Shown piece after piece: positions 1,877 through 34,805 of a stretch of 40,088 nucleotides of DNA. The notes beneath the pieces were generated by a model. That model was not told the DNA's origin. It was given only the letters and a program-made list of their open reading frames with translations, and did not search any database. How positions within the stretch are numbered: position 1 is the first letter of the stretch; every line of letters starts with the position of its first letter. The position numbers were made by a program, and so were the translations under genes. The stretch is taken from positions 1-40,088 of the forward strand of contig JANYAP010000136.1 of the NCBI GenBank assembly GCA_025361285.1, given 5' to 3'. This DNA is from Bacteroidales bacterium. Its GTDB lineage: Bacteria; Bacteroidota; Bacteroidia; Bacteroidales; JAAUTT01.

Positions 1877-3928
1877 ATGGACCCTTCATTAAATAAATTC
1901 CGCGATAAATTTTACGAAGAAGCGAACCAGTTGCTCGATAAGGTTGAAAACGACCTGCTGAAACTGGAAAAAATGCCCAACGAAAACGAACTTATCGAAT
2001 CGGCATTTCGCGCAATGCACACAATTAAAGGCGTTAGCGGTATGTTTGGCTTCGATTTTGTATGCGAGTTTACCCATTGCATGGAAAGCGTTTTTCAACT
2101 TATTAAAGACAAGCAAATTACATTCGACAGAGAGATTTTCGATATCACATTCGCCTCGCTCGACCATGTGCGGCGACTAATTACCGACGAAAAGCTTGCC
2201 GATAAGCATAATCAGGATATGCACAGTAAACTAATACAGGACATTACAATTATTTTAGAACGCAGCAAAGCCAAATCTAACAATCCAGCTAAATCATCAT
2301 CAACCGAATATGAGATAACTACACCTACAAATGCCTCTATTACAAATACTTGGCATATTATGTTGCGAACCGACGAACAGCTGTATTTTCGCGGTATAAG
2401 CCTTGTGGGTATTTTTTCGGAGCTGTCGCAACTTGGTAGCTACCAAACAGCTAAGCTCGCCTATTTAAGCGACGATAAGTCGGATACGTGGAGTATTATA
2501 CTTTCATCAAACGCTCCCAAAAACGAAATAACCGACATTTTTGTATTTCTTGAAGAAAACGCAACTATTACTCAGTTGGCAAATCAAGATATTTTCGAAA
2601 ACCTTGCTAATGGCATCAACGATGATGGCGAAGCAGAGCAATCGATACTCGAATATGTAGAAAGCTCTGGCAAAGCTAAGATAGCCGCTAGGGAAGAGCA
2701 GCTAAACATGCGGCTGTTTAATAAGAATGCCGCTACCGCCGAAGGTTCGAAGCCTGTTGCAAACAAACAAGCCATTAAGCGTATATCGGTCGATTCGGTA
2801 AAGCTCGACAATTTAATGTTTTTAGTTAGCGAGCTTATAACAGTCGATTCTCAACTTCTGTTGGCTACAAACAGCGCTAAATTTGCAACGATAAAGCCAT
2901 TGGTGGAGAAGGTTGATGCATTATCGAAGCTATTTCGCAACAACGCTTTCGAAATACGATTAGTTCCGCTTAGCGATACCGTTCTGAGATTTCAGCGGTT
3001 AATACGCGATTTGTCGCGACAGCTTGGTAAAAAAATAGAACTTTCGACACAAGGTACCGATACTGAGTTGGATAAGAACACTATCGACCAGCTTAACGAG
3101 CCGCTTATGCATATTATTCGAAATTGTATCGATCATGGTATTGAAGAACCCGATAAACGCGCCGATGTAGGTAAGCCCGAAACTGGGATGATTAAAATAA
3201 CGGCCAACCAAACCGGTAACTATGTAGTAATTACCGTTGAAGACGACGGACACGGTATAAATTGCGAAAAAGTTCGCCTAAAAGCCGTTGATAAAGGCAT
3301 ACTTAAAGCCACCGACACACCTACACGTCAAGAGATTTTCGACCTTATTTTTCTACCAGGTTTTTCCACTGCCGAAAGCCTTTCGGAAGTGTCGGGCCGG
3401 GGCGTAGGCATGGACGTGGTACGCAAAAAAATTATCGACCTACGAGGCGATATTACCATAGACTCAACCGAAGGCAAAGGCACTTCGTTCACCCTTAAGC
3501 TTCAGCAATCGGTGGCAATTATCGACTCACTACTATTTACCGTCGAGGACTCGTTTTTTACCGTGCCACTATCGGATATTATGATTTGCAGCCAAACGCC
3601 AGCCGAGGAAATTGCGCTACGGGCACACACTGCAACAATACCATATAACGACGAGCTAATACCGTTTGTCGATTTACGCAAAAAACTTCATATAAACGGC
3701 GCGTACAAAAACAAAATTAAGGTGGTAATAATTCGCAACAACGATCATATGGTGGCACTGCTTACCGACAAAATTGTTGGCGAACACCAAGCCGTTCTAA
3801 AGCCTTTGGGCCGCTCTTTCCGTAACCAGGAATACATTACTTCTGCCAGTCAGCTTGGCGATGGAAACCTGGCTTTTATGATCGACACTAATAAACTGTT
3901 TACTGCCAGTGAGGTAATGAAAAATTAG
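1877..3928 (+). CDS. cheA: Chemotaxis histidine kinase CheA
   Basis: CheA autophosphorylates in response to receptors and passes phosphate to response regulators. The order is classical: an HPt (P1) domain with phospho-acceptor His48 in MHTIKG, a less conserved P2-like stretch (about 150-250), the P3 dimerisation helices, an ATPase domain with N box (HIIRNCIDHG), G1 (VEDDGHGI) and G2 (GRGVGMD), and a C-terminal CheW-like domain. With the ATG at 1877 it has 683 residues; an upstream in-frame ATG at 1829 is less likely because it lies before the proposed transcription start. cheW and a receptor follow. The last codons and the stop lie inside the first unit of a repeat array. Confidence 0.95.
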   Translation: MDPSLNKFRDKFYEEANQLLDKVENDLLKLEKMPNENELIESAFRAMHTIKGVSGMFGFDFVCEFTHCMESVFQLIKDKQITFDREIFDITFASLDHVRRLITDEKLADKHNQDMHSKLIQDITIILERSKAKSNNPAKSSSTEYEITTPTNASITNTWHIMLRTDEQLYFRGISLVGIFSELSQLGSYQTAKLAYLSDDKSDTWSIILSSNAPKNEITDIFVFLEENATITQLANQDIFENLANGINDDGEAEQSILEYVESSGKAKIAAREEQLNMRLFNKNAATAEGSKPVANKQAIKRISVDSVKLDNLMFLVSELITVDSQLLLATNSAKFATIKPLVEKVDALSKLFRNNAFEIRLVPLSDTVLRFQRLIRDLSRQLGKKIELSTQGTDTELDKNTIDQLNEPLMHIIRNCIDHGIEEPDKRADVGKPETGMIKITANQTGNYVVITVEDDGHGINCEKVRLKAVDKGILKATDTPTRQEIFDLIFLPGFSTAESLSEVSGRGVGMDVVRKKIIDLRGDITIDSTEGKGTSFTLKLQQSVAIIDSLLFTVEDSFFTVPLSDIMICSQTPAEEIALRAHTATIPYNDELIPFVDLRKKLHINGAYKNKIKVVIIRNNDHMVALLTDKIVGEHQAVLKPLGRSFRNQEYITSASQLGDGNLAFMIDTNKLFTASEVMKN

Positions 3929-4187
3929 AAAATGTGAAAATTAGAAAATGTGAAAATTAGAAAATGTGAAAATATCCCACATCTCCTCATTTTCACATTC
4001 TCACATTTTCACATTCTCACATTCTCACATTTTCACATTCTCACATCTCCTCATTTTCACATTCTCACATCTCCTCATCTCCTCATTTCCTCATTCTCAC
4101 ATCTCCTCATTCTCACATTTTCACATTCTCACATCTCCTCATTTCCTCATTCTCACATTTTCACATTTTCACATTTTCACATTTTCA
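3921..4187 (+). repeat. Word-like 8-bp repeat array between cheA and cheW
   Basis: Bases 3921-3968 are three copies of a 16-bp unit (aaaattag plus aaaatgtg); the first copy supplies the cheA stop codon. After a short break, 3980-4187 holds 26 units in perfect 8-bp register, using only four words: cattttca, cattctca, catctcct and catttcct. The first, purine-rich arm is complementary to parts of the second, so the cheA-cheW transcript could fold here. Open frames across it (Phe, Ser, His, Leu and Ile only) are artefacts of the repeat. Confidence 0.95.
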
Positions 4188-4206
4188 CATTTAATATAAA
4201 CACACC

Positions 4207-4789: not shown

Positions 4790-7309
4790 ATGAACTTTTT
4801 TAAAAACATGAAAATTCGCACCAAGCTCCTAAGCAGCTTTGTAATTGTAGCTTTACTGGCCGGTGTTATTGGCTATTTGGGTATTACGCGTATGCATCAG
4901 ATTGATGACGCCGATACCAAACTGTATGAAAAAATTACTGTTCCTTTAGCCGAAATGATTGAGGTTGCTACATCGTTCCAACGGATACGTGTAAACGTGC
5001 GCGATGCAATTTTGGCAAACAACTCAACCGACCGCAATGCAAAACTCAAACGCATTGAAGAACTCGCGGTAACATTTCGCTCAAGCAAGAAAATAATTGA
5101 AGAAACTACCATAACTGCGCAAGGTAAAGCCGATGTTGCAGAATTGAGTAAAGCGTTTGAAGAATACATTTCGGCAATACCCGACATTAAAAAACTACTC
5201 GAAGAAGGTAGCGTTGATGGCGCTTTGTTAATAATGCAAGGTCAAATGAAAGCTAACAATGACATATGCCAAAAATCATTAGACGATATACAAGCAATTA
5301 AAATAAAACTTGCCAAACAAACTTCCGACGAAAACACAGCAATGGCAAACAGTTCCACAAATTTTATGCTAATACTTATTGCTATTGTTTTGCTAGCATC
5401 TGTAACTTTGGGGTTTGTAATAGCCACTAACATTCAAAACATTATAAAATCGGTAGTTGCGCAAACCAAAGCTTTGGTTGAAGCTGCCATTGCTGGACGC
5501 CTTGCCACCCGCGCTAAACCAGAGGACACTAACGAAGAATTCCGCGAGATTATTGTAGGTATAAATCGCACCCTCGATGCCGTTATTGGGCCGTTAAACG
5601 TGGCTGCCGAGTATGTCGATCGTATTTCCAAGGGTAATATACCCGATAAAATTTCCGATACATACAATGGCGATTTCAATGAGATAAAAAATAATTTAAA
5701 TGTGTGTATCGATGCTGTAAATATGCTAGTTGCCGATGCAGCCATGTTAACCAAAGCTGCAGTTGAAGGTAAGCTTGCCACCCGTGCCGATGCCAGTAAA
5801 CACGAAGGTGATTTTGCGAAAATAGTTGGTGGAGTAAATAACACCCTCGATGCTGTAATTGGTCCGTTAAACGTGGCTGCCGAATATGTCGATCGTATTT
5901 CGAAAGGTAATATTCCTGAAAAAATTACAGATAACTACAATGGCGATTTTAACGAGATAAAGAGCAACCTGAATGTTTGTATTGATACAGTTAACCTCTT
6001 AGTTGCCGATGCCGGAATGCTTTCAAGAGCCGCTGTTGATGGCAAACTTGCCACCCGTGCCGATGCTGCAAAACACCAAGGCGATTTCCGTAAAATTGTT
6101 GAAGGCGTAAACAACACCCTCGATGCCGTAATTGGTCCGCTAAACGTGGCCGCCGAATACGTCGAAAACATATCGAAAGGCAATATGCCAGCGGTTATTA
6201 CCGATAGTTACAATGGCGACTTTAACGCTATTAAAAACAACCTTAACAGCTTAATATTATCGTTAAACGACATAACCGAAAAGGCTAAGATTGTAGCTGG
6301 CGGCGATTTAACAGTATCGCTGGTAAAACGTTCCGAGAACGACGGCCTAATGGGCGCTCTCAACGAAATGGTTAAGTCGATATCTGGCATGATTAGCGAA
6401 TTTAAAACAGCCGTAGAAAATATAGTAGGCGCCAGTATGCAAATGCAGTCGGTAGCTATGCAAATTTCGCAGGGTTCCACCGAACAGGCATCGAGCACCG
6501 AAGAGGTTTCGAGTAGCATGGAGCAAATGGCATCGAACATATCGCAAAATACCGAAAACGCTAAGCAAACCGAAAAGATTGCTATACAGGCATCGACCGA
6601 TATGGCCGAGGGTAACAAATCGGTAGCAATTACTGTAGATGCGATGAAGCAGATTGCCGACAAGATTACCGTTATTGGCGATATAGCCGAGAAAACCGAC
6701 CTTTTGGCCATTAACGCCGCCATTGAGGCCGCCCGTGCAGGCGAGCAAGGTAAAGGGTTTGCCGTTGTGGCCGCCGAAGTACGTAAACTTGCCGAAAACA
6801 GCCAGGCTGCAGCCAAGGAAATTAACGACCTCTCGCGTAGTAGCGTTCGTATTGCCGACGAATCGGGCAAGTTGTTGGCAAAAATTGTTCCCGATATTCA
6901 AAAAACAGCTGTATTGGTGCAGGAAATTGCCGCAGCAAGCTTAGAGCAAAACTCGGGCGCAAACCAAGTAAACGGGGCTATTATGCAGTTAAACACAGTA
7001 ACACAGAAAAATGCTGCCGCCGCCGAACAAATGTCGGCAAGTGCCGAAGAGCTTTCGAGCCAGGCCGATCAGCTTAAGAGTGTGCTGTCGTTCTACAAAA
7101 CAGAGCAAGATTTAGCAGGCATATCGAAAATGCGCCTTACACAGGAACACCAAATGAAAAACATGGCCACAAGCCAGGCATTCGCTAATACAATATCGGC
7201 GAAGCCAACTTCGAAAAGGATGGCTGCAGCATCTGTTAGCTCGCACGGAACCGATATAAACCTTGGTTCGGGCGGCAGTGCGGAAAGCGATGATTTTGAG
7301 AAGTATTAA
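4790..7309 (+). CDS. Methyl-accepting chemotaxis protein with tandem HAMP-like repeats
   Basis: This 839-residue chemoreceptor signals to CheA/CheW. Residues about 12-32 and 192-212 are membrane helices bracketing a small helical periplasmic sensor region (four-helix-bundle type). Three tandem 91-residue HAMP-like units begin at residues 232, 323 and 414, each starting with a version of [11 protein letters not shown]. The cytoplasmic signalling rod follows, with the conserved hairpin tip at about 646-672 ([20 protein letters not shown]). The last 80 or so residues form a loose tail without a CheR-docking pentapeptide that I recognise. The ligand is unknown. Confidence 0.93.
5483..6260 (+). 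repeat. Three in-frame 273-bp repeats inside the receptor gene
   Basis: Units begin at 5483, 5756 and 6029, exactly 273 bp (91 codons) apart. The first two units match each other closely along their length; the third diverges after the shared YNGDFN-encoding stretch. Each encodes a HAMP-like module containing [16 protein letters not shown]. The even spacing and DNA-level similarity point to duplication with continuing gene conversion. Confidence 0.9.
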
Positions 7310-25041: not shown

Positions 25042-25168
25042 AGATGAGTAAATGACAGATGTGCAAATTACAAATTACAAATGTGGAAATTGCAAATGTG
25101 CAAATGTGCAAATGACAAAATTACAAATGACTGATGATAAATGGATTCCCAATATGCCCCATTTGTAA
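25037..25168 (+). repeat. Word-like repeat array after the hybrid kinase
   Basis: The array begins at the last codons and stop of the kinase gene (aagatgtgaagatgag) and continues in caaattac, aaatgtg and aaatgac words to about 25130. The 23 bases at 25055-25077 are identical to 4697-4719 after cheW. Near the end, ttacaaatg (25121-25129) is complementary to catttgtaa (25160-25168), so the block could act as a bidirectional terminator between two convergent kinase genes. Confidence 0.75.
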
Positions 25169-31823: not shown

Positions 31824-33206
31824 CTAGCTTCGTTTTTTTTTAGCCATTTCGTCTGAAGGCTTTTTTTCGGAATCGGAAGTTTTGCTCGATTTTTTCTTTG
31901 TTGATTGAGGCTCTTCCAATGGCGTTTTTGAATTTGCTATCTGATATTTTATTATCTCTTTGTCCTTTTCGTCAAGTTTACGAACTAGCTCGTCTATTTT
32001 GTGTTCGCTAATATTCTCGCTAAAATCTTTTTTTACCCTAATTGTAAAATCGCTCAACACGTTCATGTAATTTATAAAAGCATCGTATGGCGACTCGTAA
32101 GGGTTTGCATGTAAGTATGTTGGTCGGTCGGAGAAAAATTTAGTTGACATATAATAGAAATGGTCCGATGCTTGAAGGTATTTCCAGTCGATGATAATTT
32201 TTGAATCTTCGCTCTTTTCAACTAAATTGCTGAGAGAATATAACTTAGCAAAAGCCTCCTTTTGAAGGTCGTTGCCAAGCCAAGTAGCTAAATCGCGTTC
32301 TTCGTCGGCCCACGATATTGGTGTTGGAACACTTATTGGGGCAACTGGCTGCTGATCGCGAATTATTTCCGATGGAAAGCTGAATATATAATCGGAATAT
32401 TTGAATATTGCTTGAGGCAGGTGCTTCAGAAATTCGAAAATACCCGACTCGCTGGATTGTCGTCCTCCAAATGTCTCATAATCAATATATATATTTACGT
32501 TTTCCTCGCGTTTTTCGATATGATTTAGCCAGTTAGCAAACTTTTCGCTTGTTAATGGATATTGGTTCCAGTTTTTGTTCGAAAACCTGAACGATAAATC
32601 GTCGCTTAATTTAAAATTACGTAACAATAGCTTTAAACGAGGGTTTACAGCGCTACAATACAGGTAATTAGGACTTTTCCATCCTAAAATATGTTTTGCT
32701 CCTTCGGTTACCATTCCTTCAAAACCCATATTAGCGACTTGCTCGCCTATTTGGTCGGAATAAATCGATTCGGTATTACTAAAAACTGTGGGTATCTGCC
32801 CAAAGAACTTTTCTATTTTCTGCCTATGACTAATTACTTGGCGCTGAAATTCGCTTGGGTTAGACAACGAAGCCAATGAATGCGAGTCGGTTTCGCACAA
32901 AAACTCAACCATACCAGTTTCTGCTAAAACCTGAAAGCTTTCTATTACTTCGGGGGCATAAAGTTCAAATTGGTCGAGTGCGGAACCAGAAATGGAAAAC
33001 GCAACCTTAAACTTATCCTTATGCTTATGAATAATATCGAGCAATACCTTATTAGCCTTCAAATACGACCGATCGGCCACTTTCCGTAATATCGATTCGT
33101 TGGAAAAATCGTCGTAATAATAATGATCGTTTCCAATATCAAAGAACCTATACCGTTTAAGTCGGAATGGCTGATGGATTTGAAAAAACAAGCAAATTTT
33201 TCTCAT
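31824..33206 (-). CDS. GH57 alpha-amylase/glucanotransferase
   Basis: This 460-residue cytoplasmic glycoside hydrolase belongs to family 57, which cuts or transfers alpha-1,4-glucan. The family motifs are visible: HQP at 11-13, SISGS near 71-75, the nucleophile Glu146 in FSNTESIYS, and the acid Asp242 in YIDYETFGGRQ. The last 40 residues are a Lys/Ser-rich, probably disordered tail, ending KKKRS. It has no signal peptide. It lies 57 bp before the GT3-GT35 fusion gene and is separated from the GT4 gene upstream by a 290-bp repeat array. In Bacteroides the same trio (debranching enzyme, GT4, GH57) forms one locus. Confidence 0.9.
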   Translation of the reverse strand: MRKICLFFQIHQPFRLKRYRFFDIGNDHYYYDDFSNESILRKVADRSYLKANKVLLDIIHKHKDKFKVAFSISGSALDQFELYAPEVIESFQVLAETGMVEFLCETDSHSLASLSNPSEFQRQVISHRQKIEKFFGQIPTVFSNTESIYSDQIGEQVANMGFEGMVTEGAKHILGWKSPNYLYCSAVNPRLKLLLRNFKLSDDLSFRFSNKNWNQYPLTSEKFANWLNHIEKREENVNIYIDYETFGGRQSSESGIFEFLKHLPQAIFKYSDYIFSFPSEIIRDQQPVAPISVPTPISWADEERDLATWLGNDLQKEAFAKLYSLSNLVEKSEDSKIIIDWKYLQASDHFYYMSTKFFSDRPTYLHANPYESPYDAFINYMNVLSDFTIRVKKDFSENISEHKIDELVRKLDEKDKEIIKYQIANSKTPLEEPQSTKKKSSKTSDSEKKPSDEMAKKKRS

Positions 33207-33235: not shown

Positions 33236-33527
33236 TTTGTTGGCTGTAGAGGTTGTAGAAGTTGTAGAGGTTGTAGAGGTTGTAGAGGATGTAAGGGTTG
33301 TAAAGGTTGTAAGGGTTGTAAAGGTTGTAGAAGTTTTAGAGGTTGTAGAAGTTGTAAAAACTACCTACAACTCTATAACTTCTACAACTCTATAAAATCT
33401 ATAACTTCTATAACTTCTATAACTTCTATAACTCTACAACTCTATAACTCTACAACTCTATAACTTCTTTAACTTCTTTAACTTCTTTAACTCTATAACT
33501 TCTTTAACTCTATAACTCTATAACTTA
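33236..33527 (-). repeat. Word-like inverted repeat array between GT4 and GH57 genes
   Basis: On the plus strand 33236-33358 is built of 9-bp units close to ggttgtaga, and about 33363-33527 of 8- and 9-bp units such as aactctat, aactctac, aacttctat and aacttcttt. The halves are largely complementary (gtagaagttgtag against ctacaacttctac-type words). In the minus-strand transcript the purine-rich arm comes first and begins at the GT4 stop codon (33525-33527). Transcription into GH57 would have to cross a large hairpin. Confidence 0.95.
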
Positions 33528-34805
33528 CACCGAATCGTAAACCTCTTTCACTTTAATTGCCGAATTCTCCCATTTCAAGCCTTCAACCTCAGCTTTGCCG
33601 TAAGTTGAAAACATTTGATACAAGGCTGGATAGTTAAGTATTCCGTAAATAGCATCGCCCATTGAATTAATATCCCAAAAATCGACTTTTATTGCATGTT
33701 TAAGTATTTCGGACACTCCCGATTGGTTAGAGATAATAACTGGCACGTTCGATTGCATAGCCTCCAAAGGAGAAATTCCGAAAGGCTCTGACACCGAAGG
33801 CATTACATAAACATCGCTCATGTAATACATTTTATAAACATCGTCGCCCGATAAAAAGCCCGTAAAGTGAAATTTATCCATTATTTTCAGCTTGGCTGCG
33901 TGGGCAATCATTTTATTAAGCATATCGCCACTGCCAGCCATTACAAAACGCACATTATCCATTTTCTGAAGCACCTTGTGGGCTACGTCAACAAAGTATT
34001 CCGGACCTTTTTGCATAGTAACCCTTCCAAGAAAAGTTACTATTTTTTCGTCGAACCCTTTTGCAACCTTAAGACCTTCGTGTATTTCAATGGGTTCCAC
34101 AGCATTATATACGGTAAATACTTTCGATGCGTCGATGCCGTATTTGTCTATTACAATGTTGCGCGTAAAGTTACTTACAGTAATTACTCTATCGGCGGCC
34201 ATCATGCCTTCTTTCTCTATTTCAAAAACAGCAGGATTTACCTTTCCTCCGCTACGGTCGAAATCGGTAGCATGAACGTGCACCACTAGTGGCTTACCCG
34301 ATACTGCTTTTGCAGCAATGCCAGCTGGGTATGTTAACCAGTCGTGAGCGTGAATAACATCAAAATCGACCTCTACACCTAATACCGAGGCAACTACGGC
34401 ATAATTAGCTATTTCCTGAAAAAGGTTTGGTCCGTAAGTGCCCGAAAAATCTAACAAACCTCTATCGTTTGCTGTTACATATCGGCTTGATCCTCCGTAG
34501 TTTACCGAAAACGATTTCTCGTATTGCTCGGGCGATAAATATGGAATAAGGTGTACGCCAACCTCATACACTTTCATATTGTTGATAAATCCTTCTAAAT
34601 AAACATTTTTTTTAACTACTGGTATCTGGTTAGCACCAATAATGCTAACAGAGTTATTCTGTTCATCGCCATATACTTTAGGTACCACAAAAGTAACTTC
34701 GAGATTTGGTATTTTCGATAACCCTTTTGTAAGTCCAAAACAAGCTGTTCCAAGTCCTCCAGAAATATGAGGGGGAAATTCCCAACCAAACATCAGTACT
34801 TTCAT
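33525..34805 (-). CDS. GT4 glycosyltransferase (glycogen synthase-like)
   Basis: This 426-residue GT-B enzyme transfers glucose from a nucleotide sugar, probably to alpha-glucan. The N-terminal GGLG loop (16-19), HAHDW (152-156), the Arg261/Lys266 donor-binding pair (FLGRVTMQKGPEYF) and the E-x7-E motif (Glu340, Glu348 in SEPFGISPLEA) are all present. Its ATG overlaps the stop of the debranching enzyme by 4 bp (ATGA), so the two are translationally coupled. The stop codon is the first element of a repeat array. A second, unrelated GT3 synthase is encoded downstream, so the cell may have two glucan-building enzymes. Confidence 0.9.
   Translation of the reverse strand: MKVLMFGWEFPPHISGGLGTACFGLTKGLSKIPNLEVTFVVPKVYGDEQNNSVSIIGANQIPVVKKNVYLEGFINNMKVYEVGVHLIPYLSPEQYEKSFSVNYGGSSRYVTANDRGLLDFSGTYGPNLFQEIANYAVVASVLGVEVDFDVIHAHDWLTYPAGIAAKAVSGKPLVVHVHATDFDRSGGKVNPAVFEIEKEGMMAADRVITVSNFTRNIVIDKYGIDASKVFTVYNAVEPIEIHEGLKVAKGFDEKIVTFLGRVTMQKGPEYFVDVAHKVLQKMDNVRFVMAGSGDMLNKMIAHAAKLKIMDKFHFTGFLSGDDVYKMYYMSDVYVMPSVSEPFGISPLEAMQSNVPVIISNQSGVSEILKHAIKVDFWDINSMGDAIYGILNYPALYQMFSTYGKAEVEGLKWENSAIKVKEVYDSV

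Follow-up and report, generated by a model that had tools for sequence, protein, structure and literature searches.

A word array at an operon stop codon in a Bacteroidales genome, probably an ORF-less relative of elements that carry an IVP gene between inverted word arms

The intervening sequences (IVS) of 23S rRNA are excised by RNase III, and the Coxiella IVS is described as carrying an S23p/IVP ORF between inverted termini that form a long stem (PMC4990558). Purine-rich heptamer repeats (GACAGAT) lie directly before that ORF, and the same account terms the IVS selfish and calls its function and origin unclear (PMC4990558). Insertions in the rRNA of CPR bacteria are likewise reported to contain IVP ORFs (PMC11270868). 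Arrays of the heptamer TAACTGA are described from Beggiatoaceae, Cyanobacteria and Bacteroidetes, some of them overlapping stop codons (PMC4679880). In the main genome of that study they lie mostly just before start codons and a regulatory role is proposed; spread by mobile elements is raised as a possibility, with no evident mechanism (PMC4679880). The terms "S23" and "four helix" have no occurrence in the text of that paper (PMC4679880). REPIN/RAYT systems consist of inverted doublets thought to spread in trans via a protein encoded elsewhere in the genome (PMC3116915). Finally, a four helix bundle gene of Flavobacterium columnare, located between the guanylate kinase and nicotinate-nucleotide adenylyltransferase genes, is listed among phage elements (PMC5524665); it may be an IVP element. 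We searched the open-access literature and found no paper whose title or abstract start joins IVP genes with word arrays. Heterocystous cyanobacteria contain intergenic tandem heptamers, the STRR repeats, and REPINs rest on a fixed conserved palindrome, with RAYT being a transposase. The closest known relative of the array characterized here is the S23p/IVP intervening sequence of 23S rRNA.

The window, a stretch of 40,088 nucleotides from a draft Bacteroidales genome (contig JANYAP010000136.1, assembly GCA_025361285.1), contains an unstranded word array (33242..33531) between the stop of a GT4-family glycosyltransferase gene (33525..34805, minus strand) and the start of a GH57 gene (31824..33206, minus strand; Glyco_hydro_57, 9e-67). 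A domain search confirmed glycosyltransferase family 4 and group 1 domains in the GT4 product. The spacer between these genes is 318 nt long and nearly all of it is occupied by the array. On the plus strand, a G-rich arm of period 9 (TGTAGAGGT, 33245..33356, about 12 copies with 85% matches) is separated by a short centre of 8 bp without an ORF (33357..33364) from a C-rich arm of period 8/9/17 (CTATAACT, 33365..33525, 85-87% matches at these periods). In the operon sense these are the C-rich and the G-rich arm, respectively, and the array starts inside the GT4 stop codon TAA (33525..33527, minus strand), which forms the array junction. The 8-mer tandem recurrences number 155, compared to a mean of 2.4 and a maximum of 12 in 500 dinucleotide shuffles, and the best inverted alignment scores 37, compared to a maximum of 16 in 100 shuffles. 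The array is real and far beyond chance expectation. An array of the same plan lies between cheA and cheW (window 3910-4193), where it overlaps the CheA C-terminus; the domain search confirmed both gene names. The initial annotation had described words of 8-9 bp forming a large hairpin-like inverted array at the GT4 stop, with a word set distinct from that of the cheA-cheW array, and both descriptions were upheld. It had also noted that the purine arm comes first in the sense of transcription. This order is true but empty, because a purine-then-pyrimidine inverted repeat reads alike on both strands, and we discarded it as a transcriptional signal on these grounds of symmetry. The array lies in a protein-gene spacer, not in a 23S rRNA gene; an Rfam scan of the window gave no matches, and the word TAACTGA is absent from the array sequence.

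We searched the source genome (3.21 Mb, 202 contigs) for matches to this array and found 93, often overlapping, on 30 contigs. A sample of about 0.75 Mb, consisting of the window and up to 20 kb from the start of each of contigs 1-60, with four N-only contigs left out, contained 48 arrays of several word families. The suggestion that a general process rather than chance is at work is thus supported. Gene calling behind the placement counts was rough (76% coding). By these calls, 28 arrays had both neighbours assigned. Three of them lie in genes; among the other 25, the spacer is tandem for 19, convergent for 5 and divergent for 1, and the intergenic bases of the sample amount to 84 kb, 22 kb and 26 kb for tandem, convergent and divergent spacers. 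The IVP element described below, on contig C20, accounts for two of the 19, one per arm. Arrays overlap the gene end on 10 of 29 stop sides and on none of 21 start sides; the distance to the gene is within 30 bp on 19 of the stop sides and 11 of the start sides, and 12 of the 19 arrays in tandem spacers are nearer the stop. Thus, the contact with stop codons expected by the initial annotation is real, yet tolerance can explain it, and 5 of the 25 intergenic arrays lie in convergent spacers. It seems that insertions supplying a new stop at gene ends are tolerated and that promoter spacers are avoided, with no special design needed. A strict two-arm test classified 7 of 47 arrays as two-armed and 40 as one-armed. 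G exceeds C on the 5′ arm of all seven two-armed arrays, and six are purine-rich there; this arm order is uninformative on transcription.

Other repeats were seen along the way. A one-armed array (AAATTACAAATGTGCAAATG) at window 25050-25132 lies in a convergent spacer, begins 8 bp past a stop codon and matches IVP loci with scores of 16 at most. A 273-bp tandem repeat at window 5562-6243 (2.5 copies, 79%), within the ORF at 4790-7309, probably represents repeated protein domains. On contig C25, a chimeric array (L148 2367-2514) combines an arm of the C20 type with an arm of the C122 type, as if two elements had recombined.

Contig C20 carries a full IVP element (L143 3684-4736), made up of a G-rich arm, then an ORF, then a C-rich arm, immediately after a tRNA-synthetase gene that we take to be glyS. 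The product of this gene has a tRNA-synthetase anticodon-binding domain, and its last codons and stop consist of array words. The protein encoded by the ORF is a four-helix bundle and belongs to the 23S_rRNA_IVP family (TIGR02436, 5.8e-35), with a solved relative (2gsc, 6e-20) and a distant match to Avd (NF033474, 8.2e-12, below the curated cut-off). There are 6 PF05635 matches in the source genome, and the domain is present in 44 of 60 genomes searched (source included), with up to 20 per genome. We compared 75 IVP loci from Bacteroidales (35 returned by searches and 40 added by E-value order) with 30 control loci of the ParE toxin family from the same genome set. Tandem words occur on both flanks of 40/75 IVP loci versus 1/30 ParE loci (Fisher 4e-7), and on either flank of 72/75 versus 10/30.

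Cognate arms were scored by local alignment of the upstream flank with the reverse-complemented downstream flank, using mismatched locus pairs as the null; the flanks were too short at five IVP and two ParE loci, which were left out. The inverted-arm score has a median of 18.5 for own IVP flank pairs versus 9.0 for mismatched pairs. Scores exceeded the 99th percentile of mismatched pairs at 40 of the 70 usable IVP loci and at 0/28 ParE loci, and the own flank pair ranked first at 39/70 and 0/28, respectively. Since own flanks outscore mismatched pairs at IVP genes and not at ParE genes, many IVP genes carry cognate inverted word arms; strong arms are lacking at the other 30/70. In 36 of the 40 strong pairs, G outnumbers C on the 5′ arm, and at strong-arm loci with an upstream ORF, the arm starts 30 bp or less from its stop in 19/35. 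IVP ORFs are free of internal stops in 73/75 cases. They lie in sense with both neighbours in 47/61 cases and antisense to both in 3/61, compared to 8/19 and 6/19 for the ParE control (14 IVP and 11 ParE loci lacking both neighbours were left out). A crude test with six motifs placed none of the 75 loci in 23S rRNA. Exact 8-mer counting had been tried for cognate arms and was rejected as too noisy in AT-rich DNA, where mismatched pairs and ParE loci often pass the threshold. The idea that the IVP lineage sets the words was also rejected: across 780 pairs, similarity of the proteins shows no correlation with that of the words (rho 0.05, p 0.15), and words are shared in 3 of the 5 IVP pairs above 60% identity.

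We compared the ORF-less arrays with the same 75 loci. The best match to the window array is the own-genome C20 element (score 75, next 38), with which it has GTTGTAGAG words in common, and the best match to the cheA-cheW array is the own-genome element on contig C122 (37.5, next 27). Leaving out arrays below 60 bp and three arrays that flank own-genome IVP genes, we tested 31 ORF-less arrays; 27 match some IVP flank and 4 match none. The best locus is from the same genome for 19 of the 27 and from other genomes for 8. Own-genome loci make up 6 of the 75, an enrichment with p 2e-15, in which arrays of one family are not independent. In small samples, five IVP-free genomes gave 3 strict arrays in about 359 kb and five IVP-bearing genomes gave 10 in about 306 kb, two of the latter genomes having none. 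The window array itself has inverted G-rich to C-rich arms and words matching an IVP element of the same genome. We name it an ORF-less derivative rather than a full element because its 8-bp centre has no IVP ORF.

Signs of mobility came from plasmids. Of the 20 plasmid records in which a tblastn search found IVP, 18 are cyanobacterial; we examined the loci of 10 of the 20. The inverted-arm score reaches at least 14.5 at 7 of the 10, and the own arm pair beats all others at 4 of the 10, several loci having common words; at L353 the words are direct, not inverted. Nine of the ten ORFs have the same orientation as the annotated genes on either side; the exception, L355, is opposed to both. On Nostocales plasmids, the IVP elements have heptamer arms such as AGTCAGG. 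We then compared one operon across Nostoc plasmids in pieces 91-96% identical, using 8 of 9 matched records (H29 was left out). At the X-W junction an element is present in 3 plasmids, while 5 have a 3-bp spacer after the stop codon. At the W-Y junction a different element with other words is present in 1 plasmid, and the junction is empty (0-3 bp) in 7. No clear target duplication beyond about 3 bp was seen at these junctions. In Nostoc N6, a 182-bp insert interrupts the IVP ORF; it is ORF-less, carries the same AGTCAGG-type arms and is absent at that point in two relatives. Whole units are therefore present or absent at two plasmid junctions, and an ORF-less unit with IVP words has inserted in Nostoc. 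The family of this insert occupies 103 places in 43 plasmid records. Eight copies (N6 and seven others) have near-identical ends, and 7 of the 59 pairs predicted in their core have both partners changed, which suggests that the predicted fold is maintained as a single strand; the overall covariation term of the consensus fold is about zero (0.22). This Nostoc family might have been moved by an unrelated transposase.

Several further features of these plasmids were recorded. The ORF-less copies form a dispersed Nostocales plasmid family of 180-190 bp (L372 973-1154, L378-L384) with near-fixed ends, word arms and a two-hairpin core, and Rfam gave no match for L372 and L378. In Halotia, a further array of AGTCAGG-type words lies between two plasmid genes with no room for an IVP ORF. 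Three cyanobacterial CRISPR operons (L353, L359 and L360) also contain an IVP gene: in two of them its neighbours are cas6 and cas4, and in the other it lies between cas10/cmr2 and a gene of the cmr3 family.

In our view the window array probably belongs, as an ORF-less copy, to a family of selfish elements in which an IVP ORF lies between inverted word arms. The main rival for the window copy is growth in situ, in which a word in a tolerant spacer expands by replication slippage, template switching at the hairpin makes the inverted arm, nothing moves, and IVP genes merely live in such places. This would fit the variable word counts, the frequent fall of contig ends in arrays and the evolution of words largely independent of IVP lineage. 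It would also fit the prevalence of one-armed arrays (40/47), which counts against insertion since an inserted unit does not predict one arm. Growth in situ accounts poorly for the same words on 30 contigs of one genome, with 19/27 arrays best matching its own IVP elements, for discrete two-armed units that come and go between plasmids 91-96% identical, and for cognate arms found at IVP genes and not at control genes. We regard it as rather unlikely.

The initial annotation had suggested, as a possibility, a programmed regulatory element, namely a partial terminator or an mRNA-stability hairpin selected between operon genes. The operon-spacer position and the strong predicted fold of the array are in its favour (-81 kcal/mol, z-score -5.6 on the sense strand). 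However, the antisense strand folds to -116 kcal/mol with a z-score of -11.1, which places the stronger hairpin on the strand that is not transcribed, and a terminator scan for a GC-rich stem followed by a T run found no site. Such arrays also occur in convergent spacers. Comparison with relatives, a check that the initial annotation had called for, went against the proposal as well. A search of genome contigs with GT4 gave 80 loci, and the spacer to the next ORF, read in 34 of them, measures 0-93 bp with a low-complexity array in none of the 34. Two of four same-genus genomes could be resolved (G001, GT4 identity 91% over the matched part; G004, 81%), and in both the spacer is shorter than 30 nt and has no array. 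The GT4 C-terminus reads YDSV* in the source genome, and YDSVYV* and YDSIFA* in two same-genus relatives, so the array lies either at the ancestral GT4 stop or no more than a few bases from it. The relatives read lack the array, but they are too distant to fix its junctions at base level. On these sequences, the array is not a conserved control element of the GT4-GH57 pair, and we hold a programmed role to be very improbable. The gene before the C20 element ends in LLERL* within array words where the G001 homologue ends in LLQKLA*, and no array follows the homologue in the 3 resolved of 5 relatives. The spacer after cheA, resolved in three of four same-genus loci, is plain in two. In G003 (L339), it contains a small inverted array made of very different words, which may reflect a separate hit at this junction.

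The array might instead be a miniature element of the REPIN/RAYT type, moved in trans by a Y1 transposase. The logic of inverted doublets spreading in trans is the same, as described for REPINs (PMC3116915), and Y1 transposases occur in 15 of 16 genomes searched, the source genome included with 2 matches. The array words vary by locus, with no fixed palindrome, and a Y1 transposase is lacking from G004, an IVP-bearing genome that is about 99% complete, although of its three IVP loci the two that were read have modest arms (17.5 and 15.0). This explanation is also highly unlikely. A reverse transcriptase was considered as a requirement too. The source genome has one piece, with a stop, and among the 16 genomes searched none was found in G001, G002 and G057, all IVP-bearing and one of them only about 85% complete, which weakens the case. 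Since some IVP-bearing genomes lack each enzyme, neither is clearly the general engine, and no recombinase was identified for the word-arm elements. An artefact of a metagenome-type draft, suggested by the 202 contigs and the many arrays at contig ends, is hardly credible, because the window array lies inside its contig between unique flanks and the same architecture occurs in plasmid records marked complete; its exact length may be wrong in the assembly.

Returning to a selfish element with an IVP ORF, its full plan would be a G-rich word array, an IVP/S23p four-helix-bundle ORF and an inverted C-rich word array. Such elements would insert at stop codons and gene junctions inside operons, mostly with the ORF in sense, a placement in which host transcription can express the IVP ORF. 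ORF-less copies would consist of the arms alone, or of arms with a structured core. The likely parent family of the window array is that of the C20 element, and the window copy would have come by insertion, not growth. We infer that IVP may act on folded RNA or on a single-stranded DNA hairpin formed by the arms, that host enzymes would join the element, and that the number of words would then drift through slippage. By analogy with the 23S rRNA IVS, the transcript hairpin may be cut by RNase III. A wider and more tentative possibility is that short-word arrays of Bacteroidota and Cyanobacteria, repeats of the TAACTGA and STRR types and the 23S rRNA IVS form one mobile class. Its members would need no recombinase, would move via a folded strand handled by IVP and would land at operon stop codons, where their G-rich ends are re-made as variable words during or after insertion, with ORF-less passengers that include the window array.

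This reading would offer a concrete candidate for the origin of a class of bacterial repeats whose descriptions usually give none, and its presence/absence sites can be tested in culturable cyanobacteria. It would also give a context to the widespread "four helix bundle protein" (TIGR02436), often found between cognate inverted arms in operons and, in three plasmids read, in CRISPR-Cas operons. Compared with known systems, the TAACTGA arrays as described are similar in being intergenic short-word arrays, patchy in the same phyla and with some stop-codon overlap, but they consist of one word in direct repeats, whereas the window array has varied inverted words. The STRR repeats are likewise tandem heptamers, as are the arms of the Nostocales plasmid IVP elements. 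In contrast to REPIN/RAYT, with its fixed palindrome and transposase, the elements here vary in their words, and their protein is a four-helix bundle with no known enzyme activity. Avd of the diversity-generating retroelements is a relative of the C20 IVP, at an E of 8e-12 that falls below the curated cut-off, but no reverse transcriptase is tied to the IVP word-arm elements. The 23S rRNA IVS shares the protein family and the inverted termini or arms that form a stem, as in the window array. It differs in sitting in rRNA, whereas the elements here lie in protein operons, have longer word arms and include ORF-less copies; the IVS would thus become one case of a wider family outside rRNA.
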